Of a stretch of DNA of 64,000 nucleotides, positions 7,598-53,199 are shown piece by piece. Under the pieces are notes generated by a model. It was not told where the DNA came from, made no database searches, and saw only the letters and a program-made list of their open reading frames with translations. The stretch's first letter is position 1; the number at the start of each line of letters is the position of its first letter. The position numbers and the translations under genes are program-made. This DNA is from a virus: the IMG/VR virus record IMGVR_UViG_3300031951_000034, positions 1-64,000 of that record; one strand, given 5' to 3'.

Positions 7598-7621
7598 TAA
7601 AAAAAGGAGTAAAATATAAAT

Positions 7622-8014: not shown

Positions 8015-8084
8015 TAAAAGTATTGATTATTTTTAATTAATATAACAAAATATTAAAAATCAGTTTATTCAAGAGTTTAAATTG

Positions 8085-8124: not shown

Positions 8125-8160
8125 TGAAGTAGGAGCAAAACTAAAAAAAAGGAAACAAAC

Positions 8161-21206: not shown

Positions 21207-24200
21207 GTGAATCCATATAGCATATTAGATAACCAAAGGGTCCCAGGTTTTGGTGGTGGAGTGAACCCAGAAATTCCACCTGGAGTTAATTTGCCATACG
21301 GTTATCCATCGTTCTCAGCTATAGACAGAGCAAGAAATGCCGCAAACTCTGGGTTTGCACCAGCTTCGTCAATAGCTACAGGAAATCCGATGTTCGATAC
21401 GATGATAAATTTAATGATGTCATCGTTTAATGGTGGAAGGCCAATGCTAGGTACATTTAAGAGGCCAACAGTATCGGATTATCAGCAAACCTCAATGCAG
21501 GAAAGATACAGGGTTTTTGACTTAGCTAAACCATCACTACTTGCAGCAAATCCAATGTTAGCTGAATTAGGCGACATAGGACAAAATAGATTGTTCCAGG
21601 AGTTCATGGACCAATATACACCAGGCGGAAGTATGACTGATGCATTCGGCGTAGTGATGGGGAATTTTACTGAAAATATGGCTGGTCCTGGTATTAGGAA
21701 TGCAGAAGCAAATGCCATACACGCAGCAAACATAGTTAGGAATGTTAGCAATGGAATGTCAGACAAAGATGGACAGTGGGATTATTTTAAATCTCACGGT
21801 TTCAATAGAGCAGAAACATTCCAGAATATGGCTGCATTTAATAAAAAGTTTGGTGGTTATGTTGGTGAAATAACTGATCGATCACAGCAAGCAAAAGATA
21901 ATAATTTATCTAAATTAGCTGGAGAGGTATTAAAAAGGCCATCTCTTCCTTATGGTCCAACCCCACAGAGAGTACAGGAAATAGATCAGGCAAGAAAAGA
22001 TCATGCAAGGGCACAAAACATTTTATCTAACCAGACGTTAGATATACCAACTCCAAAGGTAAACGTAACAGAACCAGTTAAACTAGCTAGAGATGTTATA
22101 GAGAGAGCAGACAGAGAAGGAAAACTAACAGTAGAGGATAAAGAGGAAATATCTAAATATTCTGAAGCTCTTAATGCAATAAATACATTAAACCAGCAAA
22201 ATACTGAGAACGTTAAGAATACTGAAAATCAAGAAAATATTACTAATACTGAGAACGTTACCAATACTACAAATACCACAAACGCTACAAATAAAACAGA
22301 TAAAGTAGAAGAAATAATAAAAAAAATAGATGAAAGAGTTGGGGTAAACACCCCAGAAATGCCCGAAACGCCAGTTGAAATAGATGATACCCCAAAGTTA
22401 GATACAACTATTAATCAGGTACAAAAAATAATTGAAAAGCATGGGACTAAACAAGAGATAGAGACTTTTAATAACCAAAAGGAGACCATACTTAAGCAGT
22501 CTAAAAGATCTGTAGATATAACAGAACCATCCAAATTAGTTAGAGATGTACTGTCAAGAGCGGACCAAGAGGGAAGAATAACCGAGCAAGACGCAAATAA
22601 AATACAAGAAGAGTCACCCAAAATTATCAATGCTATTAGTAAGGTTCCGGGAACTCAACCAAGGGTAAGCACAGAATCAAGAAATAAAGCAACTAGCACT
22701 TTAGACCAACTATCTAATATTGTAGAAAAATTTGGCACAGACGACGAGAAAACTAAATTTAAGCAGGAACTACAAAAAATAAGTAAAACAGATAAAATCC
22801 TTGTAAACGATAGTATAGCTGAAAAAGAAAAAATACAAAAAAACGAAAGTGATAGATTATCTGAAATAAATTCAAATTTCTCTTCCGAGATAGAACAATT
22901 ATCTACAGAGGAAAAAAAACAAGATTTTAGGCAAAAAGTACAAGAACTTACTGGTTCAAACTTAAAGGCTATAGACAAAAAAATAGATTCCGATTTTTCG
23001 GGTATCATAGACGAGATAGAGCAACCAGAAAAGAAAGAAGAATTTAGACAAAAATTACGAAAAGTTGCTTTTTCTGATAAGGGAAAATTAAAAGAAGAAA
23101 AATCTAGTACGGAAACTCCTAGAATAGAAAATGAATTTTCTGACATCATCGGTAAAATACAGGAGCCAGAAAAGAAAAAGCAGTTCATAGAGAGTGTTAA
23201 AAAAATAAGTGAATCCAAAACAAATGAGATGGATTCAAATATAAACAAAACAATTTCAGAAACCCCTCAAATACTGGAAACACCAAAAGAGGAGCAGCAA
23301 CAAATCAAAGATAGATTTAAAAAATTCGCTGAATCATCTGCGTCAGAAAAAAGCAGCAATTCAGAAGATATATATAATCAATCCAAGTATCATGAGAAAG
23401 AATTTGCTGATATTATCAATAATCTTCCAGAGGAACAAAAACAGCAATTTAGTCAAAAAATACAAGGCTTAACTGAGTTTGGATCAAATAATATACAGGA
23501 ACAAGAACGCAAAATAAAAGAAAGTTTCCCTGAAATAATTGAAAAATTAGACACACAAGAGAAAAAACAAAATTTTGTATCTAGGGTCCAAGATATTCAA
23601 AACTATGAACAAAATAAAACATCACAACAAAAATATTCTGATACAGGTGGCTTGGATTTAATTGGAGAACTGGATTCACCAAAAGAAAAGCAAGAATTTA
23701 GTCAAAAAATGCAGGAGATAGATAGACAGTCTCCAGCGCAGAAAAGCGAAGGATTTTCATCGAAGCTTAATCCTTTTAGAGAAAAAGAGGTAAAGCAGAT
23801 AGATATAACCGCACCTACTGCTCTAGCAAAAAATGCTGTAGATAGGGCCAGAAAAAATAATATTATATCTGAGAGAGACGAGAAAGATCTTTCATATTAC
23901 TCTGACGCAAATGAGGCTATTAACACTCTTTCTTCAATGGAGGAAAGTCAAAAGGAGAAAGATAGGAACTCTAGGGTGAACGTAGCGCCTGGACAGGATC
24001 TTGATAGCCACTTATCTGAATATGAAGTTGCTATTAAAAAATACGGGACACCAGAAGAACAAAAAACTTTTGAGGAGCAAAAAAATAAGATAATTGAATC
24101 AACAACAGTTGATTTAACCGATACGGCAAAATTAGTTAAACAGGTGATGCAGAGAAAATCTGAATTACCTAAAGACGATAAAGCTAAACAAGAAAAGGCA

Positions 24201-26630
24201 AAAGAAGCTGAAAAATTAGTCAAGCAATTAGATGAAACTGGAACAGTCACAAGAAGAAATGATGAATCATTAGTTAAAACGATTGATGACGTTTCAGAGG
24301 TTGTTAATTCTATTGGGACAGAACAAGAAAAGAAAGAATTCGCCAAACAATCAAGTAGCGTAAAGAAAAAACTAGGAATACAAGAAAGCAACTCAACAAT
24401 TAGTTCTGAAAAAGAAATAGACATAAGTGATCCAACTAAGCTAGTTAGGGGAATAGTTGAAAGAGCAGATAAAGAAGGCAGAATAGGAAATAAAGAAAGA
24501 GAAGAAATATCCTCTTATACTGAGGCCGTTGACGCTTTGACAAAAGCCAAGAAACAAGAAGAAACTAAAACGAAGACAGATACAGACAAAAAATCAAGCA
24601 ATGTATCTGTGACAGGCGAAGAAAAACTTAGAGCGACATTAGATCAATTCTCAAAAATAGCTTTAAAGCTTGGCACTGAAAACGAAGTGAGACAGCTTAG
24701 ACAGCAATCAGACACTATAGTACGAGAAAATAATGACAAGGTAGAGCAGGCAAGAAATACCGAAAAAAATATAATAGAGAAATTCGGTTCAGAGAAAGAC
24801 ATAAAAGAAGCTAAAAAAATAACCGAAAATATACCAAGCTCTGGGCTACAATCTCTATCCGAGACAAGAACTCCACAGAATGCAAAAGAGCAAGACAAAC
24901 AGGTAGAAGATATAAGCGAGCTTAATAGCATGGTTAGGGAAGCTCAAAACGTTTTCGGTTCAGATACTGGTCTAGGTGAACTAATGGATAGGGTAGGAGA
25001 TCTTGTCGAGGGGGCATCAGGAATGTCTACAGGAAAGGTAAGAGACTTACTGCAAAAAATACAAGCTACCGCTGTTGTTGTTGATATGAGTAACGAAGCA
25101 ATTGCTAGGTATTTCGAAGTGACAAATGAGATGTACAAAGGAATGGGTGTGAAGGGGGGCAATCACACAAATATGGCTCAAAACGCATTAATCGCTGCAA
25201 AAGGCGTTACAGATGCAAGAAAGAAAGAAGCTCAGGCCAAGGGTGAAATGTATACAGGTGAATCTACCGAAGAAATGGCCGTTAAAATAGCTGAATACCA
25301 AGGAAGAGTGGCTAGATCATCAGAAAACCAGGATTTAGCTGCTGCACTTGCTACTCTTGGGACAGAGGGGGAAGAAGGTAGAGTAGGCCAAGAAATGAAG
25401 CAAGCAATGGACGCAGGAGACTTCAAAAAAGCCAGAGAAATAAAAGAACAAGCTATTTCATCCGGTAGAATATCCAAAAATACTGAATTGATGATGTCTA
25501 TAAGGTCAGCTGAATATGAAAAAAATGGTGGTGTATCAGAAAATGACTATAAACTTATACAGTCAAAATATGGAATGGATGGCGACTATTTCAAGAACTT
25601 GACGGGGGAAAATTATGAATTTGTCCGTAAACAAGTATACGGGAACATAGCCGACACGATACTTGGATCAAGAAATGATTCAATTTACGCCAGTACGATA
25701 GAGGAAACTGGGGTCGGGAAAGAGGGCACCGCAAAATTAAGGGAAGCTATATCAGATGGCAAAATAACACAGGAAGACATTACAGATGATAAAAAGTTAA
25801 AACAAAAAATATCTGAAATATTGCCAACAGCAAACCAAGAACAAATTCAACAAATTGCAGGGACAATTGGTACCGCATCTAACCAGGGTAATGTTGTAGA
25901 TCAATTTAAGGTAGCTGGAAGTGAAGAGGCAATGAAAGAGATAGCAAATATAAACAGGGAAAGAGCGGAAGTGGACGCGGAAGTTAAGCATGTAAATGAG
26001 ACAAGAGGTCCCTTACTCAGGGATTTTAATATAGGAGAAAAGGCAATGGGTGTGATGTCTAAGGTCTATAAGGACTTAAAAAAAGAGGGCAATGAGGACG
26101 GGCAAATTAGTTTCGAAAGCGTTGTGAGGTCGGCTAAGGGCCAACTTGGCGATTACGACAAAATGACAGCCAAAGAAAAGGAAATAGGAGAAGCTCAATT
26201 AGATTTAGTAACAGGAAAGGGTGGAAAACTTGTCGAGATGCACTCCACGGCAAAACAAGAAGCACATGAAGAAGCAGTAAAGGAAGTAGCTAAAATAGAA
26301 AAAAGCGGTACAAAATTAAGTGAAGAAACGAAAAAGAAATACACTGAAGAATACGAAAATAAAATATTCGAAGAAAAGAAAAGTAAAATAGCCGAAGAAC
26401 TTGAAAACGGAAAAGTAAAATTACAAGGAGAGGAAGCGGAAAAAGAAAAGAAAAATGATTTCGACCCCAAAAATGCATTAGATAGAATATTAACAGCATT
26501 AGAGGGAATAGCTGGTAAGCTTGGGGTTGAGACGAATAAAGCTTCTTCAAAGAGTTCTACTGGTGGGGCGGAAAGCAAAACAGAAAACAATGGATCATGG
26601 TGGAACCCATTTGATCCAAGACCAAAATAA
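21207..26630 (+). CDS. Tape measure protein candidate with modular repeats
   Basis: An 1807-residue protein starting at GTG, no Shine-Dalgarno site. Domains: a Gly/Pro-rich N-terminus (1-85); residues 86-217 homologous to the free 10973 protein; a long charged, largely coiled-coil region (about 250-1270); and a more globular, Gly/Ala-containing C-terminal part (about 1290-1650) before a final Lys/Glu helix. The coiled-coil holds five copies of a module beginning [VI]DITxPxKLVRDVxxRAD, at about residues 284, 435, 864, 968 and 1070. Each is followed by a IxxKxGTxxE helix. About six copies of a 45-residue FxxIIxxLxxxEKKxxFxxxVQ unit lie at 556-842. Size and position after the chaperones indicate the tail length ruler. 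Confidence 0.75.
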   Translation: MNPYSILDNQRVPGFGGGVNPEIPPGVNLPYGYPSFSAIDRARNAANSGFAPASSIATGNPMFDTMINLMMSSFNGGRPMLGTFKRPTVSDYQQTSMQERYRVFDLAKPSLLAANPMLAELGDIGQNRLFQEFMDQYTPGGSMTDAFGVVMGNFTENMAGPGIRNAEANAIHAANIVRNVSNGMSDKDGQWDYFKSHGFNRAETFQNMAAFNKKFGGYVGEITDRSQQAKDNNLSKLAGEVLKRPSLPYGPTPQRVQEIDQARKDHARAQNILSNQTLDIPTPKVNVTEPVKLARDVIERADREGKLTVEDKEEISKYSEALNAINTLNQQNTENVKNTENQENITNTENVTNTTNTTNATNKTDKVEEIIKKIDERVGVNTPEMPETPVEIDDTPKLDTTINQVQKIIEKHGTKQEIETFNNQKETILKQSKRSVDITEPSKLVRDVLSRADQEGRITEQDANKIQEESPKIINAISKVPGTQPRVSTESRNKATSTLDQLSNIVEKFGTDDEKTKFKQELQKISKTDKILVNDSIAEKEKIQKNESDRLSEINSNFSSEIEQLSTEEKKQDFRQKVQELTGSNLKAIDKKIDSDFSGIIDEIEQPEKKEEFRQKLRKVAFSDKGKLKEEKSSTETPRIENEFSDIIGKIQEPEKKKQFIESVKKISESKTNEMDSNINKTISETPQILETPKEEQQQIKDRFKKFAESSASEKSSNSEDIYNQSKYHEKEFADIINNLPEEQKQQFSQKIQGLTEFGSNNIQEQERKIKESFPEIIEKLDTQEKKQNFVSRVQDIQNYEQNKTSQQKYSDTGGLDLIGELDSPKEKQEFSQKMQEIDRQSPAQKSEGFSSKLNPFREKEVKQIDITAPTALAKNAVDRARKNNIISERDEKDLSYYSDANEAINTLSSMEESQKEKDRNSRVNVAPGQDLDSHLSEYEVAIKKYGTPEEQKTFEEQKNKIIESTTVDLTDTAKLVKQVMQRKSELPKDDKAKQEKAKEAEKLVKQLDETGTVTRRNDESLVKTIDDVSEVVNSIGTEQEKKEFAKQSSSVKKKLGIQESNSTISSEKEIDISDPTKLVRGIVERADKEGRIGNKEREEISSYTEAVDALTKAKKQEETKTKTDTDKKSSNVSVTGEEKLRATLDQFSKIALKLGTENEVRQLRQQSDTIVRENNDKVEQARNTEKNIIEKFGSEKDIKEAKKITENIPSSGLQSLSETRTPQNAKEQDKQVEDISELNSMVREAQNVFGSDTGLGELMDRVGDLVEGASGMSTGKVRDLLQKIQATAVVVDMSNEAIARYFEVTNEMYKGMGVKGGNHTNMAQNALIAAKGVTDARKKEAQAKGEMYTGESTEEMAVKIAEYQGRVARSSENQDLAAALATLGTEGEEGRVGQEMKQAMDAGDFKKAREIKEQAISSGRISKNTELMMSIRSAEYEKNGGVSENDYKLIQSKYGMDGDYFKNLTGENYEFVRKQVYGNIADTILGSRNDSIYASTIEETGVGKEGTAKLREAISDGKITQEDITDDKKLKQKISEILPTANQEQIQQIAGTIGTASNQGNVVDQFKVAGSEEAMKEIANINRERAEVDAEVKHVNETRGPLLRDFNIGEKAMGVMSKVYKDLKKEGNEDGQISFESVVRSAKGQLGDYDKMTAKEKEIGEAQLDLVTGKGGKLVEMHSTAKQEAHEEAVKEVAKIEKSGTKLSEETKKKYTEEYENKIFEEKKSKIAEELENGKVKLQGEEAEKEKKNDFDPKNALDRILTALEGIAGKLGVETNKASSKSSTGGAESKTENNGSWWNPFDPRPK

Positions 26631-34889: not shown

Positions 34890-37193
34890 ATGGCTAATAC
34901 ATGGGTTCCACTAATTAAGCCTCCAATAGATGGAGAGCCTATAAATCAAGAGACCGAAGCTAGACCAATAAGAGCTCTTCAACAGAGAACCGATTTCTTG
35001 TTCGAGAGACTGAATGATTTTAGTTCCCAGAACGGGAAACTAGTTATACAGAATGTAAGAGTTTCAAACGATGTAGAAGTCGGGGACTGGGTTTTCTTTA
35101 ATAACGAGAGCCAAAAATATGAAAAGGCTATAGCAGAGGGTGTTTTCGATAACGAAACAAAACAATACAAAGCCTCTGATAGAACGTTTGTAGTTGGATT
35201 ATGTGTACATAAAAATCAGACACTCGGTTCAATATTAATGAGTGGCTGGATTAATGACATTAAAGACTTTCAAATTGCTAATGTGCGTCAAATGCTTGAA
35301 GACACTACAGAGCAATTTAATCCAGGAAGATTTTATTTATCTAGGAAAAAACCAGGTAAAATGACTTCAGTGGGTGGAGCTCCATTAGTACAATTAGGAT
35401 TTTTTACGGAGAAAGATGCTTTTGTTCAGCCACTACAAAAAGATATATTTGAATCACATATACACTATAAATTTACGCTAGAAGCAAAACCATCTGCAAG
35501 CCAAAACATATCCAGAAAGGGTTACGTAGAAAAAAATGGTATAAAGTATGTTGATTATTTTTACTCTTCATCCAGGCCAGAAGGAGATGTTCCTCCATTT
35601 ATAATGTGTTTAAAGGGCAATGGATCATATACATCTATTGCTGAACAATTTAGAATTGATATTGTAAAAACTACTGACAATAAAATTGGATTTAGATTTG
35701 GAAGAGGTTCATTACTTGATTTTGATGATCCATCTAGCGGGTCAATTGAAGTCGTCTCTCAGGTTAGCATACCTGACTACGGAAAATGGATCACAATACC
35801 AAATACTGGTATAGATATTTCTTTCGTCAGGCATGATGGCGTGTATTCGGGTAACACCCTTCAACAAGATTTTACTACTGCAATGTCTACGGACGGTGCT
35901 GATAAATTTTGCATTTATTATCCGTTCGACACAAATGGATGGACAAACGTTAACTCATTTGATGGGAGATATACAGTAGGCACAAAATATAGATACTTAA
36001 GAGAGTTCAATAAAAGGGTAAACGCAGTTTGGCCTCCTACTCCGACAGAATCTGTAACAATAAGCAATAATGGTATAGATTTAATAGAGTCGAAAGATTT
36101 TAAATGTTTTCCACAAGACTTATTCTGGGTCCCTGGAACCTTCAGCAACAACGAACAAAAAACAGATTCTCCATGGCCTCATGACTATATTGCTAGAAGA
36201 ATTGATACCGACCCAGATCCAAATCAATCACTAAGCAAGTACCTACAATTGTTTTTCTCAAAGGCAAACGTAAGTACGGCAAGACCACTAGTGCTTTCAC
36301 TTCAAAGTTTTACTCCAGCAATACAAGTACTTGATTGCTTTACGAAAGAAGAGTCAACTACAGGTAATCTTGCAATTGATCTAAGACTCGACTTAAATAC
36401 TACAGACGGCCCAGATGCGGACAAGTGCTTCTCTAGAATTGATTCAGATACTCAAAAGTTTGTAACATCCCCCCTCGTAAGCAGAGTTATTGCGGGTCAG
36501 GGGATAGAGATCAAGAATTTACAGGGTAACTCAGCTGAAACAGGTAAGGTTATTATATCGAGCACAACAATACAATCATCTGGTGAGGTATCTATAGTTT
36601 CGCTAAAAAACGCAAAAGAATATTTACATAATGGAGTTATGCCCTGTGTAACATTCTTGCCTCCTGGATCCGCTAAATGCCAGATGGTAGCAAAAATAAA
36701 AATACCATATCAGGCCGTGCCAGAGAGCAGTGGAGTAAAATTATTTTTATCTTCAAATGTATTTGGATCCTCCTCTGTATCGCAAACAAATACATATAAT
36801 GCACTATTTAAGGCAAATTACTATGTATTTCCGTCAGGACTTGGTAATGCCCCTAGAGCCTCTTGGAATAACTTTAACCTTAATTACATTGATGACTCAA
36901 GTGATGAAGTATCTTTTGATATAAAATACTGGAAAACTCAACTAACCAATTACTTAGCTTATACGGTAGACAAAAATCAATTCCCTAAACAGGGTTCAAT
37001 AATATCAAACAACGGAAACACTGATTTATTTGTTTTATACGGAAAGATAAACAATATAAATCAACAAAAAATAAGACCAGGTGATGTTGTTTATGTTATG
37101 ATAGAAAGAGTTTCTACGTTTGGAGAAGACGGAGATACTTACCCTGGAGATATAAGCTTTTTAGATATAAACTGGAGAACGGAGGTTATCTAG
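34890..37193 (+). CDS. Large tail fibre/baseplate protein, unknown
   Basis: A 767-residue beta-rich protein. The N-terminus is helical (ETEARPIRALQQRTDFLFER), as in proteins anchored in the baseplate, followed by beta domains with many Asn/Ser/Gly turns. The segment FVVGLCVHKNQTLGSILMSG near residue 95 is a motif I associate with structural tail proteins, but I cannot name the family. Its last base is shared with the next start (TAGTG). Confidence 0.62.
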   Translation: MANTWVPLIKPPIDGEPINQETEARPIRALQQRTDFLFERLNDFSSQNGKLVIQNVRVSNDVEVGDWVFFNNESQKYEKAIAEGVFDNETKQYKASDRTFVVGLCVHKNQTLGSILMSGWINDIKDFQIANVRQMLEDTTEQFNPGRFYLSRKKPGKMTSVGGAPLVQLGFFTEKDAFVQPLQKDIFESHIHYKFTLEAKPSASQNISRKGYVEKNGIKYVDYFYSSSRPEGDVPPFIMCLKGNGSYTSIAEQFRIDIVKTTDNKIGFRFGRGSLLDFDDPSSGSIEVVSQVSIPDYGKWITIPNTGIDISFVRHDGVYSGNTLQQDFTTAMSTDGADKFCIYYPFDTNGWTNVNSFDGRYTVGTKYRYLREFNKRVNAVWPPTPTESVTISNNGIDLIESKDFKCFPQDLFWVPGTFSNNEQKTDSPWPHDYIARRIDTDPDPNQSLSKYLQLFFSKANVSTARPLVLSLQSFTPAIQVLDCFTKEESTTGNLAIDLRLDLNTTDGPDADKCFSRIDSDTQKFVTSPLVSRVIAGQGIEIKNLQGNSAETGKVIISSTTIQSSGEVSIVSLKNAKEYLHNGVMPCVTFLPPGSAKCQMVAKIKIPYQAVPESSGVKLFLSSNVFGSSSVSQTNTYNALFKANYYVFPSGLGNAPRASWNNFNLNYIDDSSDEVSFDIKYWKTQLTNYLAYTVDKNQFPKQGSIISNNGNTDLFVLYGKINNINQQKIRPGDVVYVMIERVSTFGEDGDTYPGDISFLDINWRTEVI

Positions 37194-38155
37194 TGGCACA
37201 AAGTATAATTTTCCCTGAGTGGCTAAACTCCAACTCTGTTAGAAATTACCCAATAGCAGAAAACTGCTCTAGAATTGACAAGAGCGGGTCGTATACAATA
37301 TCGAACGATCTAATTGTCTCTGCACAGGTCAATCATTCAAGAGCGTACGCAGATGGAGTATTTTTTATATCTGGTCTATTTGTATCTGTCCCAGTTATTA
37401 AGATATCTATATCGTATCAACCTGAAGATACTTTAATTTCTCCGACATATATATCAACAATAGAAATAGATACTAAAAATTTTTCTAAATTTAGTTACCA
37501 TTCTTTTATTGGTCAGAATGAAAACTCATCAGTGCTTGGAGCAATTGCGGTAGGTGATATAGCAGAGACGATAAACAGGGGTCTAGGTAATTTCGATTTT
37601 GATAGCTCCTCAACTAAGCTAGAAATAAATTGTAGATTTGTTTCTATGCCGTCTATGCAATACATAGATATATATGATTCAAATAATGTATTAATTCATA
37701 GAGCCACTGATGTTTTAAAGATAAAAGCTGGACAAAACGTAAGAATAACGTACGACCCATTAATAAATATAGATACTGGCGAGACCGACCAATATGGTTG
37801 CGTAAAGATAGATGCAATAGTAGATGAGAACGTCATAAAAGAACCAGACGGGTGTGAAACAGCTAAAGCCTTTTACAGTCCATGTATAAAAACTATTAAT
37901 GGTGTTAGGCCAGACTCAAATGGAAACTTTTGGATAGAGGAGTCGGAATGCATAGGGATTGATGAGTACAAAGATGCCAACTCTATAAAAGTTAACGATT
38001 TATGTTCAAGTTCTTGCTGTGGCTGTGTTGATCTAGAATTTTTGACTGCAGGATTAGAACAGTTAAAACAACAGGAAGAAAGACTTAGGGAACTTGTTTT
38101 AACAACTCAAGGAACTCAAAGTGAGTTACTTGCAAACTTAATTGCAAATCTGTGA
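37193..38155 (+). CDS. Fibre-associated paralogue 1 (W-x-NS-x-R-x-[FY]P family)
   Basis: A 320-residue protein starting at GTG; a GGAGG ribosome site 8-12 bases upstream decides this start. The N-terminal motif FPEWLNSNSVRNYPI is shared with the next four genes. Beta-rich residues 20-200 follow. Then come ING at about 233 with the pattern INGVRPDSNGNFWIE, a cysteine cluster (CSSSCCGC, near 275) and a C-terminal coiled coil. The ING-x-x-P-D-x-x-G-x pattern is common in phage tail fibres. Function unknown; perhaps adaptor or fibre-trimerising protein. Confidence 0.7.
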   Translation: MAQSIIFPEWLNSNSVRNYPIAENCSRIDKSGSYTISNDLIVSAQVNHSRAYADGVFFISGLFVSVPVIKISISYQPEDTLISPTYISTIEIDTKNFSKFSYHSFIGQNENSSVLGAIAVGDIAETINRGLGNFDFDSSSTKLEINCRFVSMPSMQYIDIYDSNNVLIHRATDVLKIKAGQNVRITYDPLINIDTGETDQYGCVKIDAIVDENVIKEPDGCETAKAFYSPCIKTINGVRPDSNGNFWIEESECIGIDEYKDANSIKVNDLCSSSCCGCVDLEFLTAGLEQLKQQEERLRELVLTTQGTQSELLANLIANL

Positions 38156-39783
38156 AAAATATACAAGAATGGCAGCAAGAAAATTCAATAAGGGCGTTTC
38201 CATTCAGTGAAAAAACAATTTCAGCTAATGGAATTCCAAAGGATTTTATCGTAGATCTTAAATTTTTTCCAGACTACTATTCAAACAATTCTATATATTT
38301 ATCTAGCGTTATATATAGCTCGCAAAATGATTCATACGTTCTTGAATTTAAATATTCACAAACAGAAGAAATAGCAATTATTTCTGGATCAATTTCTCGA
38401 AGAAGAAGCGTACAGAAAAATGGAATAACTACTAGCGTAAACAGAAAAGGAGATCAAATAACATTAAAATATAGTAATCCTGTATTTTCTCAGATAACTG
38501 GATATGCTACAAAATATGCGGTATGCATGTTTACTATTGGTTCTTCCTGGGATAACGCTTTGCAGAATTTATCCAACCTTGATAAAGAATCATCGTTGCT
38601 TGATTCATCGGTAATAAATCCAGGAAGCAAGGGTTTTAGGAGAGTTTTCATACAAAAACTTCCAGACTATATAACAAGCAGTAATCCTAATTTTTATGTA
38701 GCCCCCTCTATTCCAGAAGAAAATGAATGGGGCAGGGAGATTATACAAAAAATAAAAGCTGGGCCTAACGTAGTTTTCTCCAAAGATTTAGTAGACCCCA
38801 ATCTAATAATTGTTTCTGCTACTCCAGTAGCAACCACTAGTAATGATTCTACGCTAAACACGGACATTAAGTTTATTAATAATGTTGGCCCAGATGATAC
38901 AGGTAGATTTAGGTTGAATACTGTAGGATGCTTAACAAAAATAGAGAGACCAGAAACACGATTTTCTGATGACTCACCAGACGAACAACAAGATATAAAG
39001 TTATTGAATTCTGTACAGCTTCTCAGTGATTGTTTACCGTGTTGCGGGTGCGAAAAATACAGAGCATATACAGCAGCAATAGAGAGAAGGTCTAGAAAAT
39101 TAAAAGAAGTGTGCGATCTACTTGTGCAAATGGTTACATCAAACACCGAGCTGTACAATGACGCTGTAAATAAAATAAATAAAGAAAGACGGCCAATTTG
39201 TAGGGTGAGAAACCTGAGAGTATTTGAAGATCAATTTAGAATTAGTGTGCAGAACACCTGCTCAGTTCCAATTTATGTGGACTTTAGGTTGAGTGTTGTT
39301 GGAGGATTTGGCATAGAACCACAAAGTTTTTCTATACTAGAATTTGACCCTAGCCTGGAGTCAGACAAGCCACCCTTGATATATTCTTCAATCGAGGAGC
39401 TTCCTGCTTTGACTACTACGCCAAAAGACTATTACAATAATTCACCTGATTTACCTAGCGGATTTTTCGGAGGTTTTGTTATTGGATCAAACTCTGAATA
39501 TGGAGATATCAAACCAATAATGCCAGGTAGCTATACAGATATAACTTTTGTTGCTAATTTTCCTGTATTTGATTTAAAAGACAATAACCTTACAATAAAA
39601 TGTGAATCTAACGGCATATATGGTGGGACAGTTAACGACGATCAAGTATGGACAGGAACTTATGGATGCAAGAAAGATGTCTGGATAGCTAGATATGAAT
39701 ATGGTCCAGTTTTGCAGTCAAAAAGTTGCGGCGGAGAATTGATAAGTAGACAAACCTATAGAGTTATACAATTAGATCAATAA
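38152..39783 (+). CDS. Fibre-associated paralogue 2 with cysteine cluster
   Basis: A 543-residue member, starting at GTG overlapping the previous stop. It has the N-terminal motif IQEWQQENSIRAFPF, the motif INNVGPDDTGRFRLN near residue 241, and a cysteine cluster (DCLPCCGC) plus helix, closely matching paralogue 1 through that point. It then continues with about 200 extra residues of beta-rich sequence. This extension may be a receptor-binding or surface domain. A KxSCGG motif lies near the C-terminus. Confidence 0.7.
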   Translation: MKNIQEWQQENSIRAFPFSEKTISANGIPKDFIVDLKFFPDYYSNNSIYLSSVIYSSQNDSYVLEFKYSQTEEIAIISGSISRRRSVQKNGITTSVNRKGDQITLKYSNPVFSQITGYATKYAVCMFTIGSSWDNALQNLSNLDKESSLLDSSVINPGSKGFRRVFIQKLPDYITSSNPNFYVAPSIPEENEWGREIIQKIKAGPNVVFSKDLVDPNLIIVSATPVATTSNDSTLNTDIKFINNVGPDDTGRFRLNTVGCLTKIERPETRFSDDSPDEQQDIKLLNSVQLLSDCLPCCGCEKYRAYTAAIERRSRKLKEVCDLLVQMVTSNTELYNDAVNKINKERRPICRVRNLRVFEDQFRISVQNTCSVPIYVDFRLSVVGGFGIEPQSFSILEFDPSLESDKPPLIYSSIEELPALTTTPKDYYNNSPDLPSGFFGGFVIGSNSEYGDIKPIMPGSYTDITFVANFPVFDLKDNNLTIKCESNGIYGGTVNDDQVWTGTYGCKKDVWIARYEYGPVLQSKSCGGELISRQTYRVIQLDQ

Positions 39784-39787
39784 TTAT

Positions 39788-40711
39788 ATGATAGGAGATA
39801 TTGAAGATTGGTATAATTTAAACTCATTAAGGTCTTATCCATTTGAGTATAAAAAATATGAATTATCAGACAAGAATTTTACATTCTCTGATTTATTGAT
39901 TGTTGATTGTATGGCAATTGTTCATGTGAATGATGCTAAAATATCTTTGTCTTCAATACATTTTTCTGGAAATATTTTTACAGCAACTTTTTATGACTCA
40001 ATCCTTGATCAAGATATTTTTATGGCTCAAGGAAGTCTTTTAAATAAATTTGTGTCATCTCCAATTATTCCGTTGTCTGATGTGGGGGTATCTGGGAATG
40101 TGGCTTTTGGTGATTTAACAAAATTCTATCACATGAGATTAAGCGGATTGCATAAATTTACAAATACAAATATACCTTTAATAAACTACTGTTATATATG
40201 TGCTGGAGAGCCCGCAATAAAATCAATTGAGTACAACATGGGAAAAGTAGTTGGAGACATAGACTTGTCTACGATTGGTTTACTTAACACCATGGTAGAT
40301 TCCAATAATAATACAATTAGGCAAATAAATCAAAACGGAGTTACCCAAAAAGTAGTAATAGATCAATCAAATGTTTTATTTTATTTATCCGACCCATCAG
40401 TCATAGAGGATATATGTCAACCTCCAAGGACTGTATGTGATTGTCCACATACACCAATTAAAAAAATTAATAATGTATCACCTAATCCTCAAAACGGTAA
40501 TATAAATATTGAGGTTGGTGATTTTAAATTAAATGAACAAAACGGAAAATTTGAATTAGAGGTTGGAAGCAGTTCCAGTGGATTAGAGATAGAAAATACT
40601 GCTGATGGTATAATTTTATCTTTGCAGAAAAATAGCGAAGAAATATGTGAAGACACTAAAATTATACCATTTCCAGATGGAAGACTACCTAGCGAAGAGT
40701 TTATAATATAA
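39788..40711 (+). CDS. Fibre-associated paralogue 3
   Basis: A 307-residue member: N-terminal IEDWYNLNSLRSYPF, beta-rich middle, cysteine-bearing segment (ICQPPRTVCDCPHTP) and INNVSPNPQNGNINIE at about 226. It ends acidic. It lies 4 bases after paralogue 2. Role as for the family; unknown. Confidence 0.68.
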   Translation: MIGDIEDWYNLNSLRSYPFEYKKYELSDKNFTFSDLLIVDCMAIVHVNDAKISLSSIHFSGNIFTATFYDSILDQDIFMAQGSLLNKFVSSPIIPLSDVGVSGNVAFGDLTKFYHMRLSGLHKFTNTNIPLINYCYICAGEPAIKSIEYNMGKVVGDIDLSTIGLLNTMVDSNNNTIRQINQNGVTQKVVIDQSNVLFYLSDPSVIEDICQPPRTVCDCPHTPIKKINNVSPNPQNGNINIEVGDFKLNEQNGKFELEVGSSSSGLEIENTADGIILSLQKNSEEICEDTKIIPFPDGRLPSEEFII

Positions 40712-40713
40712 AA

Positions 40714-41433
40714 ATGGAAGCATTAACATACAAAGAGTGGAGAAATCAAAACTCCGAATCTACTTTTCCGTTTACTTACAATAATTCGGAAATAGATAAT
40801 ACTATTTTTATTGATGCTTCCTTAGTAGTCTATGAAGACACTGATATATGGTTATCTAGTCTGTCTTTGAAGGTTGATTCATTCTATGGAGAATTAAAGT
40901 CCGGTAGCTCTAGAAAATACACTTTTTCATCAAACGATCAAATTACCCCATACAAATTAATACCAATAATGGATAGTAGGGGTATTTCGGTAGGTAGTAT
41001 AATTACTGGTACATATTTTTTGAATTTATCTAACAATAGAAAATCTTTTTCTAAGAATTTTGACAGCAGACAAATTCTATTAAATCCTACTTGTTTATTT
41101 ACGTACCCATCAAAGCAGGTTTCTTCAATAAAAATTGGGCCTCAAAGAATAAATGGTTTTATAAACTTTCATGAAGGACCAGGGGTCGAGATGAATGGAA
41201 ATAGCAATATAATTGTTTTTGACTCTATAGGCAAAAATAGTTCTAATGCAATTGATGAATGCTGTGATCCAAATCAAATTATATTAAAAAAAATAAATGG
41301 TATATCTCCAGAGGAGCTAGATTTATATATAAAGCCAAGAGACGTTGGGCAGCCGTCTAACACACTAGACGAAAGACAGGTTATAAGAATAAATCAGTCA
41401 GAGGGTGGGATAAAAATAGAATTAACCAAATGA
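40714..41433 (+). CDS. Fibre-associated paralogue 4
   Basis: A 239-residue member: N-terminal YKEWRNQNSESTFPF, beta-rich body, CC doublet (DECCDPNQ) and INGISPEELDLYIK at about 192. It starts two bases after paralogue 3 and overlaps paralogue 5 by four bases. The shortest of the five; unknown function. Confidence 0.68.
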   Translation: MEALTYKEWRNQNSESTFPFTYNNSEIDNTIFIDASLVVYEDTDIWLSSLSLKVDSFYGELKSGSSRKYTFSSNDQITPYKLIPIMDSRGISVGSIITGTYFLNLSNNRKSFSKNFDSRQILLNPTCLFTYPSKQVSSIKIGPQRINGFINFHEGPGVEMNGNSNIIVFDSIGKNSSNAIDECCDPNQIILKKINGISPEELDLYIKPRDVGQPSNTLDERQVIRINQSEGGIKIELTK

Positions 41434-42275
41434 ATAGCTCTTATCCATCTTTTTTCTCTGAAAACTCTAATAGATCTTTTCCTTTCGTAGAGAACACGGT
41501 TTCTAGTAAGGTTAAAAACTCGTGTTTCATAGATTTTAAATGCTGGACAAGGTTTAAGACACATGAGTCCCCCAGCCTATACTTGGTCGCAAACTATTCA
41601 GCAGATTTACCAAATGAGTATAAGCAATTTTTGTTAGATGGATTTTGCACATTATTTTTTTTAGTACACAAGGTACCAGAAAATGAGCATGTATTTAATG
41701 GGATGATATGTGTATATATTCCATTAGACAATTCTCAATGGCCGTATTTAGGTGTATCCAGTGTGTGGAATTCTAGTGGAATTAAAATGTTTGAATTAAG
41801 GACTTTGGTAAATTCTTCTGTATTGGATATTGCATCAAATCCTGATAATTATTTATTTCCATCAAATTTATTTAGCAACCAAGGTGATATAGGGTTAAAA
41901 ATAGAACCAACTCAAGTAATCTACTCAGGTAATATAGTTATCGATGAATTAAATATTGTAGACCAGGATGGATATCACAAAAAAAATATAAATGGTGATG
42001 TGAAGGTTTCTCCTGGATATAATTCCTATATTTATCAAGCTGATAAAAAGTTTACAATTAATTCATCCGCAAATATAGGATCAGGCAAAAGATATAATGA
42101 CGAAAAAAACGATATCTGTAATGGAGTATTTTCAATAAATGGAGTGACACCAGATGAATCTGGAAACTTTAAGATAGAGGGTGACAATGGCGTATTGATA
42201 TTCAATCTTCCGGAAGAATATAAAATAGTGGTAGCTATTGATCCAAAAACAAAAATAGCGAAATGCCAGACGTAA
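41430..42275 (+). CDS. Fibre-associated paralogue 5
   Basis: A 281-residue member: N-terminal [15 protein letters not shown] (the Trp replaced by Phe), beta-rich body, and [15 protein letters not shown] at about 235, near the C-terminus. Its end overlaps the first collagen gene by 13 bases, so the last paralogue and the first collagen chain are translated together. This links the family physically to the collagen fibres. Confidence 0.68.
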
Positions 42276-44422
42276 AAAATACAATAACAGATTGTGAGTT
42301 TACTCCTCCATATATCTTGGAGTGTGAAGTAAAAATACCTAACTTTGTTTTTTTGTGTCCATCTCCAAAACAGGTTACACCAACCATATTTAGCGTAGAA
42401 TACGCTATACCTGGGTGTGTTGGGGCCACTGGCATACAAGGTACTCCAGGTGGTTTCGGTATACCTGGAGCAGTTGGAGCAATTGGGGCTACTGGGCAAA
42501 CTGGCCAACAAGGACTCCCTGGTTCTACTGGTATAACTGGTGATATAGGTTTAAGTGGCCCTCCTGGCCCTCCTGGTGGTTTTGGAGCAACTGGAGTAGA
42601 TGGACCCCCTGGAATCGCTGGACCAGTAGGTCCAGCTGGTCCAACAGGGCCTACTGGCCCACCAGGAGTTATTGGACCCAAAGGGGATACTGGAAAAAAC
42701 GGCAGCACTGGTCCCGCTGGACCAGATGGGCAACCAGGAAAAACAGGCAAGGTGGGATTACCTGGTTTACCTGGAAGCACTGGGACTGTTGGGCCTCCTG
42801 GAGTAGATGGACCTCAAGGAAGAGTTGGCCCAACTGGATCCAGGGGATTGCCTGGAGTATCTGGTCCTGTGGGGCCCCCTGGGCCTGTAGGGCCACCAGG
42901 TGGCGCTGGAGGACCTGGCGTTCCTGGAGCTTCTGGTTCTATTGGTCAACCTGGTGCTTCTGGCAGTCCAGGAAATCCTGGTACACCTGGTCCTGCTGGG
43001 CCTCCTGGTCCAATAGGAAATCCTGGACCAACTGGTCCACCTGGTACAAGCCCTTCTGGGCCACCTGGACCACCAGGAGGGCCAGGCCCAACTGGACCAC
43101 AAGGTCCTGCTGGCTCAAATGGAAACCCTGGGCCACCTGGAGTTACTGGACCACCTGGGGCGTCTGGTGCGCAAGGAGCATCTGGATCTGCTGGACCCCA
43201 AGGTCCTGCTGGACCTGCAGGTCAACCTAACTTAAATTTTGGTCCTCCTGGACCTCCTGGACCTAGTGGAACTCCTGGTTCTCCTGGTCCAACTGGACCT
43301 CCTGGCACTTCTTTACCGGGTCCTACTGGTCCTCCTGGACCTCCTGGACCTAGTGGAACTCCTGGTTCTGCTGGTACTCCTGGCGGAGTTGGGCCTGTTG
43401 GGCCACCTGGTCCTGCTGGGCCACCTGGTCCTTCAAACTTAAACTTTGGACTACCAGGTCCTCCTGGGGCAAGTGGCACTATGGGGCCACCTGGGCCAAC
43501 TGGACCTCCTGGAGCAACAGGTACAAACGGAAATCCGTCCCCAGGGCCAACTGGACCACCTGGTCCCCCTGGACCTGGGGCTTCTGGTAGTTACGGAAAC
43601 CCAGGGCCAACTGGGCCACCAGGAGCACCTGGTGCACCAAATTCTAATTTTGGACCTCCTGGTCCTGCTGGAACAAGTGTGCCTGGACTTCCTGGTCCTC
43701 CTGGACCCCCCGGAACAAATATACCTGGATTAACTGGACCGCCTGGGCCTCCTGGCCCAACTGGTCCACCTGGACCTCCTGGGCCAAGTGGAGCACCAAA
43801 TTCTAATTTTGGACCTCCTGGACCTCCAGGACTTCCATCTACTGTACCTGGACCGCCTGGGCCTCCAGGTCCTCCTGGGCCTAGTGGAACTCCAGGTACA
43901 TCAGGAAATCCTGGACCACCTGGCATAACTGGGCCTGATGGTCAACCTGGTCCTCCTGGAGCGAGCGGAACACCAAATAATAATCCTGGTCCTACTGGTG
44001 CATCTGGGGCAAGCGGGACCCCAAATACTACTCCTGGGCCTCCAGGTCCTCCTGGAGCCTCAGGATCAAATGGGCCTGCTGGAGCTCCAGGTCCTATTGG
44101 TCCACCTGGACCTGCTGGATCAAATGGTGTTGATGGGCTTATTGGCCCTATGGGACCTGTTGGTCCTCCTGGGCCAAGTGGTGCTGTAGGTGCACCTGGT
44201 GTATCTGGGCCCCCTGGCCCAACTGGACCTCCTGGTCTTTCTGGACCTCCTGGTCTTTCTGGACCTCCTGGTCTTTCTGGACCTGCTGGAGTAACTGGAC
44301 CCACTGGGGTAACTGGACCCCCTGGAAGTATACCACAACCTGGAACAGCTGGCGGAAATGGACAATCGAATTGTAGTGGTAGCTGTCAGATATGTTTTTA
44401 CATGAGAAGTCCAAGTTGCTAG
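42263..44422 (+). CDS. Collagen-like fibre chain A
   Basis: A 719-residue protein. Residues 1-50 form a non-collagen head with cysteines ([18 protein letters not shown]). From residue 51 (GCV) to about 687 there is an almost uninterrupted Gly-X-Y repeat rich in GPP, GPT, GAS. A few phase breaks occur, such as N-x-NFG and GTSxPG. The C-terminal 32 residues are cysteine-rich ([11 protein letters not shown]). Gly-X-Y repeats form a triple helix; bacteria usually lack prolyl hydroxylase, so stability would rest on length. The region is GC-rich compared with its surroundings. Likely a tail or head fibre. Confidence 0.88.
44213..44298 (+). repeat. 86-base direct repeat shared by collagen chains A and C (copy 1)
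   Basis: This stretch, encoding [19 protein letters not shown] and GPAGVTG-type repeats, is identical base for base with 48476-48561 in chain C, 4263 bases downstream. Inside it a 18-base unit (GGACCTCCTGGTCTTTCT) is repeated three times in tandem. Confidence 0.85.
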
Positions 44423-44449
44423 TATTATTACTAAATTTTTTTTATATCA

Positions 44450-46552
44450 ATGGATAAAGATTGTAAATTTATTCCCCCAGTTTTGTCTGATTGTGAGATA
44501 CAGGTTAAGCTACCAGATTTAATATGTAAAACTCCTGTTTTTGTATATAGTGTACTAAACACACAAGACTTAACCATTGGAATTCCAGGATGTAGTGGTG
44601 TTCCTGGAATTCCTGGTATAATTGGTCTTGACGGAAGCCCAGGCGCACCAGGCGCTCCCGGATTGATGGGTTCAACCGGTATTACGGGGGCCGTAGGAGT
44701 TAAAGGAGCAACAGGAGCAACTGGGTTAGCTGGTCCAACTGGTAACATTGGATTGCCTGGGCCCGCAGGACCGCCTGGGGATCCTATCCCTGGCCCAACT
44801 GGACCAATAGGAAATCAAGGCAAGAAAGGTGAAGATGGTCCCAAAGGAAACCCAGGTAAAGATGGTATACCAGGTCCTCCAGGATTGCCTGGGGTTCCTG
44901 GGTTAGATGGATCAGATGGTGTACGAGGTCTTCCTGGGATTAATGGAGCTACTGGATTACCTGGGGCTCCTGGGGTAATTGGTTTGACTGGGGGTCCGGG
45001 AGCGACGGGATTAACAGGAAATCCAGGCAATCAAGGACCTCCTGGGGTAGTTGGGGCTTCAGGCAACCCTGGACCCATGGGGCCACCAGGAGCGATTGGT
45101 TCTACTGGATCTGTTGGCTTACCTGGCCAAACGGGTAGTGATGGACCAGTTGGTCCTCCTGGTCCTGCTGGTCCTGCTGGTGGTGTAGGTCCTCCCGGTC
45201 CCCCTGGAGCATCAGGCACAGCTGGTCCTGCTGGTCCTGCTGGTGGTATTGGTAATCCTGGTCCAGTTGGTCCTCCTGGTGCCTCAGGATCTATTGGTGT
45301 GGCTGGACCTCCTGGTCCAACAGGACCACCTGGACCTACTGGTGTTGCGGGGACTAACGGTATTTCTGGCCCTCCTGGGCCATCTGGACCCGATGGAGTT
45401 ACTGGACCACCTGGCCCTACCGGTCCCCCAGGGGGCAATGGACCAAATGGCAACCAAGGTCCACCTGGAGCTACTGGAGTTGGTAACCCTGGACCTACTG
45501 GGCCTACAGGTCCTCCTGGGCCTAGTGGTACTTCCGGTAATCCAGGTGTATCTGGGCCGCCTGGATCAAGTGGACCTGCTGGACCTGCTGGAAACCCTGG
45601 AGTAACTGGACCACCTGGCCCAACTGGACCTCCTGGAGGTGTAGGACCTGCTGGATCTCAAGGTCCTGTTGGGCCTGCTGGAAATCCAGGAACTAATGCA
45701 ACCCCTGGACCTCCTGGACCTCCTGGACCTCCTGGACCCTCAGGCAGTGGCGGAGGCACTGGACCTCCTGGGCCTCCTGGACCTAGCGGAACTCCTGGTA
45801 ATAATGGACCAACTGGACCACCTGGCCCACCTGGGTACGGTATAACTGGTCCACCTGGACCACCTGGACCTAATAATGATGGCACCCCCGGAATACAAGG
45901 AGTAACTGGGCCTCCTGGTCCAACAGGACCACCTGGGCTACCTGGGAATGACGGTTTAACTGGACCACCTGGGCCTACAGGTCCTCCTGGATATAGTGTT
46001 ACTGGTCCTCCTGGTCCTGCTGGCCCTCCTGGAACTCCTGGAATATCGAATACTACTCCTGGACCACAAGGTCCTGCTGGATCACCTGGTCCTCCTGGAC
46101 CACCTGGACCATCTGGCTCGAATGGATACAATGGACCAACTGGGCCTCCTGGACCACCTGGACCAGATGGAGTAACTGGACCAGCAGGGCCGCCAGGACC
46201 TAACGGAAATCCAAATAGTAACTTTGGACCTCCTGGTCCTCCAGGTCCTACTGGCCCTGCTGGTTCTTCTAGCACTGTTAACGGGGTTCCAGGTCCGCCA
46301 GGTCCTACTGGCCCTGCTGGTCCTCCTGGGCCAAGTGGTGCTGTAGGTGCACCTGGTGTAACTGGACCTCCGGGGGTATCTGGTCCTGCTGGAGTTTCTG
46401 GACCTCCTGGTCTTTCTGGACCTGCTGGAGTAACTGGACCCCCTGGAGTAACTGGACCGCCTGGAGTAACTGGACCACCAGGAACTCCTGGGCCTCCTGG
46501 GCCTCCTGGTGGAAATACCTGTACTTCTTGCGTTACATGTAGTTGGTATTAA
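44450..46552 (+). CDS. Collagen-like fibre chain B
   Basis: A 700-residue protein built like chain A. The head is residues 1-43 ([20 protein letters not shown]). Gly-X-Y runs from 44 (GIPGCSG) to about 688. It has a short cysteine-bearing tail ([10 protein letters not shown]). Chain B has the lowest number of visible phase breaks. Its C-terminal repeats ([16 protein letters not shown]) and DNA resemble the end of A and C. It starts 27 bases after chain A. Confidence 0.88.
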
Positions 46553-46573
46553 TATATAATACACTTACACTGA

Positions 46574-48685
46574 ATGAATGACTGTGATTTTACGCCACCG
46601 CTAATTGAGCCTTGTGACATTAAATTAATAGATCCTATTAATTTATGTAAAACCCCAGAGATATTAGACAATTTAGAAATCAATACTCAAATTGATCCGA
46701 TAGACGGGTGTCTCGGGGCAACAGGTCCATCTGGTCAACAGGGAATACCAGGAGTTAATGGATCTCCTGGTGCTTTTGGAATTACTGGAGCAACAGGATT
46801 AATTGGAGCAACAGGATCTACTGGGGTAACTGGCCCCATGGGTGATCCAGGCAGAAATGCAGGAGCTACTGGTTCTTTTGGGGCAATAGGAAAAAAAGGG
46901 GTAAATACAATGGGTCCAGTAGGACCCAGAGGCCCCACTGGACCAGATGGTTTACAAGGAGATACTGGACCAGATGGAGATGATGGACTGCCAGGTGTGC
47001 AGGGGCCACCAGGTAAAGATGGACCGCCAGGATTAAATGGAGCGACTGGATTACCTGGGGCTATTGGGGTTCCTGGGCTTAGAGGAGCTACAGGTATGCA
47101 GGGCGCAACAGGAAACGTAGGTCCGCCTGGACAAAAAGGATATGACGGACCAGTTGGACCGATGGGAGCAACTGGACAACAAGGTCCACAAGGAACCATA
47201 GTAGGTCCTCCTGGTGCGTCTGGCTCACCTGGTCTTGCTGGTCCATCTGGAACCCCTGGAACACCGAATACTACTCCTGGTCCTGCTGGTCCCCCAGGAA
47301 CAACACCTGGTCCGCAGGGTCCACCTGGACCCCAAGGGCCAGCCGGAGGGGTTGGCAATCCTGGACCACCTGGAGTTAGTGTCACTGGACCACCTGGGCC
47401 TCCTGGCGCTACTGGCGCGGCTGGACCGCAAGGAGCCCCTGGCAATCCAGGAGCTACTGGGCCTGCAGGATTGGCTGGGCAATCTGGACCGCCTGGAATT
47501 GCTGGACCATCTGGACCGCCTGGATCAAATGGGCCTGCTGGAGCTCCTGGCGCTCCAGGAATATCTGTGTCTGGACCACCTGGACCACCTGGACCGGCTG
47601 GTTACGGAGCTCCAGGTCCTACTGGTCCACCTGGACCAACAGGCCCTCCTGGACAAAATAACGCAGTAGATGGTGCATCCGGTCTTGCTGGTCCTCCTGG
47701 TCCAACTGGACCTCCTGGAACATCAGGATCAAATGGACCTGCTGGAGCTCCAGGTCCAGCTGGGTCTATTATTCCTGGAATCAGTGGACCTCCTGGTCCT
47801 CCTGGACCCAGTGGAACTCCAGGCTCAAGTCTTCCTGGACCTCCTGGGCCTACAGGTCCTCCTGGGGGTGGAACTCCTGGTCCTCCTGGTCCAACTGGAC
47901 CTCCTGGAGCATCAGGATCAAATGGGCCTGCTGGAGCTCCAGGTCCAACTGGATCTATTATTCCTGGACCTACTGGGAATACTGGGCCGACTACTTCACC
48001 GCCTGGTTCACCTGGCTCTCAGGGAGCTACTGGTCCTGCTGGTCCACCTGGACCAACTGGATCAGGAGGGCCGCCTGGATCAAATGGGCCTGCTGGAGCT
48101 CCAGGTCCAACTGGATCTACTACTCCTGGACCTACTGGCCCACCTGGACCTACCGGATCGCATGGCGTAGATGGACAAACTGGGCCATATGGTCCCCCTG
48201 GAGCATCTGGGGCACAAGGAGCAACTGGGGCATCTGGTACACCTGGTTCAGACGGTTCACCTGGCCCAGCGGGCCCATCTGGCTCGCCTGGATCAAATGG
48301 GCCTGCCGGACCTAGCGGATCTGCCGGTACGGACGGTTTAACTGGACCACCTGGGCCTACAGGTCCTCCTGGACCACCTGGACCATCTGGCTCGGCTGGA
48401 TACGATGGACCAACTGGGCCTCCTGGACCACCTGGACCTACTGGTCCCCCAGGAGTTGCCGGACCATCTGGGCCACCTGGCCCAACTGGACCTCCTGGTC
48501 TTTCTGGACCTCCTGGTCTTTCTGGACCTCCTGGTCTTTCTGGACCTGCTGGAGTAACTGGTCCTGCTGGAGTAACTGGTCCTGCTGGACACCCAGGTAC
48601 AACCGCTGACGGGAGTACTGTAGGTGCAAGAGGTCCCGGTGGATGCGCAAATGCTAATTCTTGCTGTCAGGCGAAATTCAGTTAA
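46574..48685 (+). CDS. Collagen-like fibre chain C
   Basis: A 703-residue protein. The head is 1-44 ([20 protein letters not shown]), then Gly-X-Y starts at GCL (45) and runs to about 670. The tail contains CANANSCC. Internal repeats [14 protein letters not shown] recur several times at the DNA level (47525, 47728, 47918, 48076). Same architecture and near-identical length to A and B. Confidence 0.88.
48476..48561 (+). repeat. 86-base direct repeat shared by collagen chains A and C (copy 2)
   Basis: Identical to 44213-44298. Synonymous sites are also identical, which indicates recent gene conversion or duplication rather than protein-level selection alone. Confidence 0.85.
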
Positions 48686-52047: not shown

Positions 52048-53199
52048 ATGAGATTTCACATTCTTGGATTGCCTCACACGGTTACAAATAAAGAATTTGT
52101 TGCCTGTGCGTACACACAAAAAGTATTAAAGTTTGGGAAGATGATGAAAGCTAGGGGCCATGAAATAATACATTATGGCCATGAAGATTCTGAGCTTGTT
52201 TGCGATGAACATGTGAGTGTCCTTACAAATAAAGACTTCAGTGATGTATATGGATCTCACGACTGGAGAAAAAAATTCTTCAAGTTTGACGTAAACGATA
52301 ATGCATATCAGACGTTCCATAAGAACGCAATAACAGAGATACAAAAGAGAAAACAAAAAAATGATTTTCTTTTACCTTTTTGGGGCTATGGGGTAAAGGC
52401 AATATGTGATGCACACGAAGACATGATTGTTGTGGAACCAGGAATAGGATACGCTGGTGGACATTGGGCTAAGTGGAAAGTATTTGAGTCTTATGCTATT
52501 TATCACGCTTATTGCGGATTACAGAATGTCGGTCAATGCAATCAATCATGGTATGATGTAGTTATTCCCAACTATTTTGATTTAAATGATTTCGAGTACT
52601 CAGATAAAAAAGAAGATTATTTTTTGTACCTAGGGAGAGTATATGACGGTAAAGGAGTTCATGTAGCAATACAAGCAGCTGAAAAAGCTGGAGTCAAGCT
52701 AGTTATAGCTGGCCAAAAAGATGAAAACTTCAAGATACCTAGCTCAGTTGAATATATTGGATATGCAGATATAGATACACGCAAAAAATTAATGAAATAT
52801 GCAAAAGCTAGTTTTATCCCAAGCATGTATGTAGAGCCTTTTGGTGGAGTTCAAATAGAGAATTTATTGTCTGGCACACCAACAATAACTACAGATTGGG
52901 GTTGCTTTGCAGAAAATAATATACATGGCATAACTGGATATAGATGCAGAACAATGGGGGACTTTATATCTGCAATAAAAAATATAGATAAAATAAAACC
53001 ATCGGATTGTAGAAAATGGGGAGAGAATTTTTCTTTAGAATCTGTTGGAGCGATGTATGAAAAATATTTTCAAGACGTATTAAATGTATATACTGGCAAT
53101 GGTTGGTATTCCGGTGAATCTGAGCTTTTTCTAAAGTATTTGGATAGAAACTATACATCTCTTGAGGGTAGTACAAAAGTTAACGAACTTATTCCATAA
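52048..53199 (+). CDS. Glycosyltransferase, GT4-like (GT-B fold)
   Basis: A 383-residue enzyme. The C-terminal Rossmann domain has the donor-binding signature: YLGRVYDGKGVHVAIQAAEK (about 195-215) and VEPFGGVQIENLLSGTPTI with the E-x7-E pair (around 270). The N-terminal part has an HxxxxHEDSE-like segment and is compatible with acceptor binding. It probably transfers a nucleotide-sugar-derived residue to a virion protein, host polymer or DNA. Its position right after the fibre genes makes fibre glycosylation an attractive hypothesis. Confidence 0.82.
   Translation: MRFHILGLPHTVTNKEFVACAYTQKVLKFGKMMKARGHEIIHYGHEDSELVCDEHVSVLTNKDFSDVYGSHDWRKKFFKFDVNDNAYQTFHKNAITEIQKRKQKNDFLLPFWGYGVKAICDAHEDMIVVEPGIGYAGGHWAKWKVFESYAIYHAYCGLQNVGQCNQSWYDVVIPNYFDLNDFEYSDKKEDYFLYLGRVYDGKGVHVAIQAAEKAGVKLVIAGQKDENFKIPSSVEYIGYADIDTRKKLMKYAKASFIPSMYVEPFGGVQIENLLSGTPTITTDWGCFAENNIHGITGYRCRTMGDFISAIKNIDKIKPSDCRKWGENFSLESVGAMYEKYFQDVLNVYTGNGWYSGESELFLKYLDRNYTSLEGSTKVNELIP

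Follow-up and report, generated by a model that had tools for sequence, protein, structure and literature searches.

Heterotrimeric collagens of animals (types I, IV and IX and C1q) combine different chains with tracts of equal length; the chains are selected by non-collagenous ends and carry terminal cysteines. Prokaryotic collagens are termed homotrimers in a review (PMC8968730). Among phage proteins, EPclA/B of E. coli prophages are trimeric side-tail fibres encoded by a single gene, with PfN, PCoil and PfC domains (PMC3368898), and FibU of Staphylococcus phage 80alpha is a baseplate fibre protein with a collagen-like segment (PMC7048315). The Pcl genes of Pasteuria ramosa form triplets of consecutive genes, to which three groups contribute one gene each in fixed order and orientation and which stay together as units; the infection phenotype is associated with the whole triplet rather than with individual genes, the function of the triplet is stated as unknown, and the word heterotrimer occurs in neither paper (PMC13233619, PMC10329263). 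A full-text literature search, judged by title and with most subscription papers outside its coverage, found no heterotrimeric phage collagen. Here, we describe three consecutive collagen genes, A, B and C, in a 64,000-nucleotide stretch (the window), positions 1 to 64,000 of the 131,288-base IMG/VR virus record IMGVR_UViG_3300031951_000034. Judging from sequence comparisons, their products probably wind together as the three strands of one triple-helical collagen, which would be an obligate heterotrimer (ABC). An earlier examination of the letters alone (the sequence-only reading) had raised this idea against a background of bacterial collagens regarded as homotrimers, which agrees with the review (PMC8968730).

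The three genes and their counterparts in a related phage

The genes are consecutive open reading frames on the + strand, and in the product of each, an extended Gly-X-Y tract lies between a cysteine-bearing head and a short cysteine tail. Their parts are as follows, with the orthologous tails of a related phage described below.

42263..44422, + strand: collagen chain A, 719 residues (open reading frame; Pfam PF01391, 8.2e-74)
42263..42412, + strand: head of chain A (residues 1–50), C-x9-C-x10-C
42413..44371, + strand: Gly-X-Y tract of chain A, 653 residues, about 203 triplets
44372..44422, + strand: cysteine tail of chain A; orthologue in the relative GCSPCSICLFMQ
44450..46552, + strand: collagen chain B, 700 residues (open reading frame)
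44450..44578, + strand: head of chain B (residues 1–43)
44579..46519, + strand: Gly-X-Y tract of chain B, 644 residues from the conserved Gly-Cys
46520..46552, + strand: cysteine tail of chain B; orthologue in the relative CSSCVKCTWA
46574..48685, + strand: collagen chain C, 703 residues (open reading frame)
46574..46705, + strand: head of chain C (residues 1–44)
46706..48643, + strand: Gly-X-Y tract of chain C, 646 residues
48644..48685, + strand: cysteine tail of chain C; orthologue in the relative CAGGTDGVCYQAIFQ

Chain A matches the Collagen family PF01391 with a score of 243.7 bits (curated cut-off, 27.2), and chains A, B and C contain 203–207 triplets each. The common plan that the sequence-only reading had assigned to three tandem genes of 719, 700 and 703 residues is borne out by the translations, including the onset of Gly-X-Y at residues 51, 44 and 45. 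The three head cysteines are identically spaced (C11/21/32 in A, C5/15/26 in B and C4/14/25 in C), the fourth cysteine of each chain belongs to the first Gly-Cys of the tract, and the tails hold four, three and three cysteines in A, B and C, respectively. The tracts are interrupted by about 14–15 (A), 9–10 (B) and 16–18 (C) breaks. A second IMG/VR contig (L004), 99.96% identical, carries the same locus with identical chain lengths.

Aligning the capsid and the sheath with those of distant relatives in culture gave access to related phages. Scanning with the major capsid alignment, we found L015 and L014, whose capsids are 78% and 85% identical, respectively, and the record of L015 (G002) has a homologous locus (L080), in which the genes around the collagens, corresponding to window positions 27–52 kb, are 31–62% identical. 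This relative carries three collagen genes of 143, 137 and 143 residues (a, b and c) in the same place and the same gene order. The contigs L085 and L086 represent the same virus (at least 99.96% identical, with identical chains), and the three short-chain IMG/VR records were counted as one independent lineage. The flanking homologues measure 320/313, 307/277, 239/236 and 281/274 residues in the window and the relative, agreeing within about 10%; in this neighbourhood, it is the collagen tract that varies in length, but in step across the three chains. Among 54 records searched for collagen, the sole finds were the short-chain virus (three records) and one single-chain relative; with the 38152 and 34890 proteins or an alignment of the three heads as queries, nothing beyond the virus of the window was recovered. 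Neither the head of chain A nor the short chain of the relative matched anything in cultured phages, but BLAST masks low-complexity sequence, and these phages may carry collagen trios all the same. Salmonella phage Arash and Vibrio phages D69, D148 and D181 are distant relatives through protease, capsid and sheath (26–35% identity), and no homologue of window positions 34–49 kb was found in their records or stretches searched.

Measured between the conserved Gly-Cys and the first cysteine of the tail, the tracts span 653 (A), 644 (B) and 646 (C) residues in the window and 88 (a), 81 (b) and 83 (c) residues in the relative. The two lineages therefore differ by 565, 563 and 563 residues in the respective chains. 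Within each phage, the order A > C > B is kept, with A–C offsets of 7 here and 5 in the relative and a C–B offset of 2 in both. When block-wise growth was simulated independently for three chains, they agreed within 3 residues in 0.03–0.36% of runs; the simulation is crude, and its assumption of equal means is generous to the null. The tails are orthologous in gene order, A resembling a, B resembling b and C resembling c (the last-named tail sequence being GCAGGTDGVCYQAIFQ), and the C-x9-C-x10-C pattern is present in all six heads of the two phages. The conservation of chain-specific cysteine tails in two lineages may reflect chain selection. The tract lengths of a related lineage could have contradicted the idea of a heterotrimer, and they support it.

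A candidate heterotrimer and its alternatives

Interruptions of the Gly-X-Y repeat, mapped by a simple parse, provide a measure of register. At native numbering, six breaks of B and C coincide within 3 residues, compared with 1.6–2.3 expected (p 0.0005–0.005). In a three-chain test that allowed shifts of up to 9 residues for A and up to 2 for C, in data and controls alike, five breaks were common to A, B and C within 2.5 residues; 1.1 were expected, and none of 1500 jittered controls reached five. The best shifts (A −6, C −2) are near the length offsets. In the short chains a/b/c, the breaks are roughly aligned at 12/9/9, 46/–/44 and 71/65/68. The heterotrimer put forward by the sequence-only reading thus gains indirect support from the only related lineage found to carry the trio, whose chains are 5 times shorter and again have matched tracts (88/81/83) and orthologous tails, and from the coincidence of helix breaks. 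At the level of sequence, the trio combines what marks a heterotrimeric collagen, namely distinct chains of equal tract length and register that are kept together in evolution.

In the proposed assembly, one A, one B and one C would fold into a single triple helix, with a 1:1:1 ratio of chains as the simplest reading. At 0.286 nm per residue, the roughly 650 residues here would give a rod of about 185 nm, and the short tracts of the relative one of about 24 nm. The homologous N-terminal cysteine heads would join the chains and attach to the virion at one end, while the chain-specific cysteine tails at the other end would pick one A, one B and one C and fix their register, probably through interchain disulphides. 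The product would be a virion fibre of a contractile-tailed phage, as the position of the genes behind the sheath gene and directly after those of the baseplate region suggests. One A+B+C triple helix is favoured because homotrimeric fibres would not need length matching at the residue level.

The strongest competitor, which we nevertheless consider unlikely, consists of three homotrimeric fibres (AAA, BBB and CCC) of equal length, lying side by side in a bundle or spanning one common distance on the virion. Such fibres would conform to the characterised prokaryotic and phage collagens, which are described as homotrimers (PMC8968730; PMC3368898), and a common distance would make the lengths co-vary; tract length does follow the length of the putative tape-measure protein, as described below. 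However, separate rods of 185 nm that only had to satisfy a spacing constraint could vary by several residues, whereas the observed agreement is 0–2 residues with the signs of the offsets kept, and neither the retention of exactly three chain types nor the coincident breaks would be explained. The charge pattern bears on the same question. Lysine and arginine residues of all three chains are almost entirely confined to the first 150 tract residues (6/6 in A, 6/6 in B and 7/8 in C), and in this charged zone a C homotrimer has no favourable and three unfavourable axial pairs and looks repulsive. Mixed trimers near the nominal register reach up to 4–5 favourable pairs with none unfavourable, a weak indication because it is the best of many.

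Several observations weigh against the ABC heterotrimer. A homotrimers score well in the charged zone (four favourable and one unfavourable axial pairs), and chain A contains a KGD motif and chain B a KGE motif, which fit homotrimeric fibres, since such motifs also stabilise homotrimers. The break coincidences of A/B and A/C are not significant unless shifts are allowed, several breaks are chain-specific and would have to be accommodated in one helix, and the breaks might owe their positions to descent from a single ancestral chain. The trio was seen in no more than two independent lineages. Furthermore, the distant relative G021, which has homologues of several flanking genes, has one collagen chain at this locus, a single protein of 708 residues (L081:7799-9925, − strand). 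Its head of 409 residues contains repeated cysteine units of the C-[FY]...P..CP kind, which by eye resemble the unit that occurs once in each of the heads of A, B and C.

Comparison of the tract DNA bears on the two remaining alternatives. Identity near the diagonal is 38–42% at best, against an off-diagonal mean of 36% (within about 2 standard deviations), and collinear DNA is confined to the last approximately 180 nt, which are 84–94% identical between the genes, and a few stretches of 32–41 nt. One block of this end is located as follows, at an equal distance from the C-terminus in chains A and C.

44203..44326, + strand: C-terminal tract end in A; 93.5% DNA identity to 48466–48589 in C and similar to 46350–46465 in B

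Since most of the tract has no excess of collinear DNA similarity, recent copying does not explain the match. A common spatial constraint combined with mixed trimers of no fixed stoichiometry (for example A2B, ABC and C3 together) appears highly improbable: the homologous heads and the similar last 180 nt would let the chains mix, whereas the chain-specific tails conserved in two lineages may reflect chain selection. An origin of the lengths from triplication and gene conversion or from repeat collapse in assembly, with no functional coupling, is scarcely credible: short C-terminal blocks are exchanged or conserved among the genes and slippage-prone tandem units of 9/18/27 nt lie within the tracts, but most of the tract lacks collinear similarity, the tails are chain-specific, separate contigs of each virus (at least 99.96% identical) give the same lengths, and independent growth rarely agrees within 3 residues.

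Genomic neighbourhood and tail length

Three features of the window place the collagen genes in their phage context.

13963..16716, + strand: tail sheath (PHROG 279, 1.4e-12)
21207..26630, + strand: putative tape-measure protein, 1807 residues, assigned by position
37193..42275, + strand: five tandem paralogues of 320, 543, 307, 239 and 281 residues with a shared N-terminal NS-x-R-x-[FY]-P-[FI]

The tail sheath match identifies the phage as a contractile-tailed myovirus. The collagen genes directly follow the five NS-x-R-x-FPF-like paralogues and precede small genes that are likewise conserved. The first paralogue contains a conserved CSxxCCGC, and the family is kept in relatives both with and without collagen, including the still more distant L097–L100, which retain the paralogues and have no collagen. 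The paralogues are probably baseplate or fibre-attachment proteins. Searches of Pfam, PHROG and folds gave no match for them; of two structural models, one has a fair beta-rich domain (residues 20–145), whose best PDB match (E 0.04) is not significant, and the other is poor. The idea of one adapter per collagen chain was rejected because the array stays at 4–5 genes in relatives without collagen. A sigma-70 region 3-like protein (29196–29909; PF04539, 5e-6) is encoded amid the baseplate-region genes and is 62% conserved in the relative.

Two small genes precede the putative tape-measure gene, which occupies the usual place of such a gene, and the putative hub and the baseplate-region genes follow. 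The counterpart of this gene in the relative encodes 789 residues (L101:15175-17544); its ends are homologous, and its middle is about 1000 residues shorter. In G021, a putative tape measure of 1130 residues (L103 reverse strand, 5236–8628 on the reverse complement) was assigned by position only and has no BLAST match to the other two. Tape measures of 789, 1130 and 1807 residues accompany tracts of 84, 259 and 648 residues, giving a slope of 0.557 tract residue per tape-measure residue (n = 3). For a rod parallel to the tail, a slope of 0.52–0.55 is expected, at 1.5–1.57 Å per tape-measure residue and 2.86 Å per collagen residue. That tract length tracks tape-measure length is only a lead, with three points, one of which comes from a phage with another kind of collagen head and a tape measure assigned by position. 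We tentatively propose, as a possible but doubtful extension, that the obligate ABC heterotrimer may lie along the contractile tail with its rod length tuned to the tail, so that tape measure and collagen would lengthen together. Long tail fibres of T4 run along the tail when retracted. If the proposal is true, the collagen rod would add a second component of matched length to the phage tail.

Other genes of the record concern possible modification of the collagens. Two glycosyltransferases are encoded at 52048–53199 (approximately 70% identical to Synechococcus phage proteins) and 60476–61447, and the collagens might be glycosylated at their threonine-rich Y positions. A 2OG-Fe(II) oxygenase (L009:7741-8379; G000 111741-112379; PF13640, 1.3e-12) has prolyl 3-hydroxylase 1 as its best solved relative (3e-6), with prolyl 4-hydroxylases weakly behind. 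Proline occupies 30–42% of the Y positions in the collagens of this phage and few in those of the relative, and no homologue of the oxygenase was found in the relative's records, which are partial. A hydroxylated viral collagen is a possibility. The phage genome also encodes a SET-domain protein (L009:8481-9008; PF00856, 3e-14), and a fibre-like gene at the record end contains a further short collagen-like tract, rich in GAT/GAS (L010:6559-7251). The leaders of B and C (44423–44449 and 46553–46573) are A+T-rich and have no Shine-Dalgarno sequence. Leaders of this type occur in Bacteroidota and their phages and provide a hint to the host.

Comparison with known collagens

Heterotrimeric collagen has so far been treated as an animal invention. 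The phage trio resembles the animal heterotrimers in its different chains with tracts of equal length and cysteines at the ends, and perhaps in chain selection by these ends, with no homology claimed; its ends comprise only 10–50 residues. If the ABC heterotrimer is real, chain selection and register control would have evolved beyond the animal kingdom, and with ends no longer than about 45 and 10–16 residues. In that case, the chains of the relative (143, 137 and 143 residues) would offer a very small natural system for tests of chain selection and for mixed collagens in bacteria. Among phage fibres, EPclA/B similarly place a collagen shaft between non-collagenous ends (PMC3368898); a Pfam scan of chain A found only PF01391 and neither PfN (PF08400) nor PfC (PF06820). 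FibU of phage 80alpha differs from the trio in having a short collagen segment (about 30 residues) in one gene (PMC7048315). The nearest precedent, in organisation only, is the Pcl triplet of Pasteuria ramosa: its genes belong to a spore-forming bacterial parasite of Daphnia, and it is matched here by an A-B-C order with orthologous tails in two phages.

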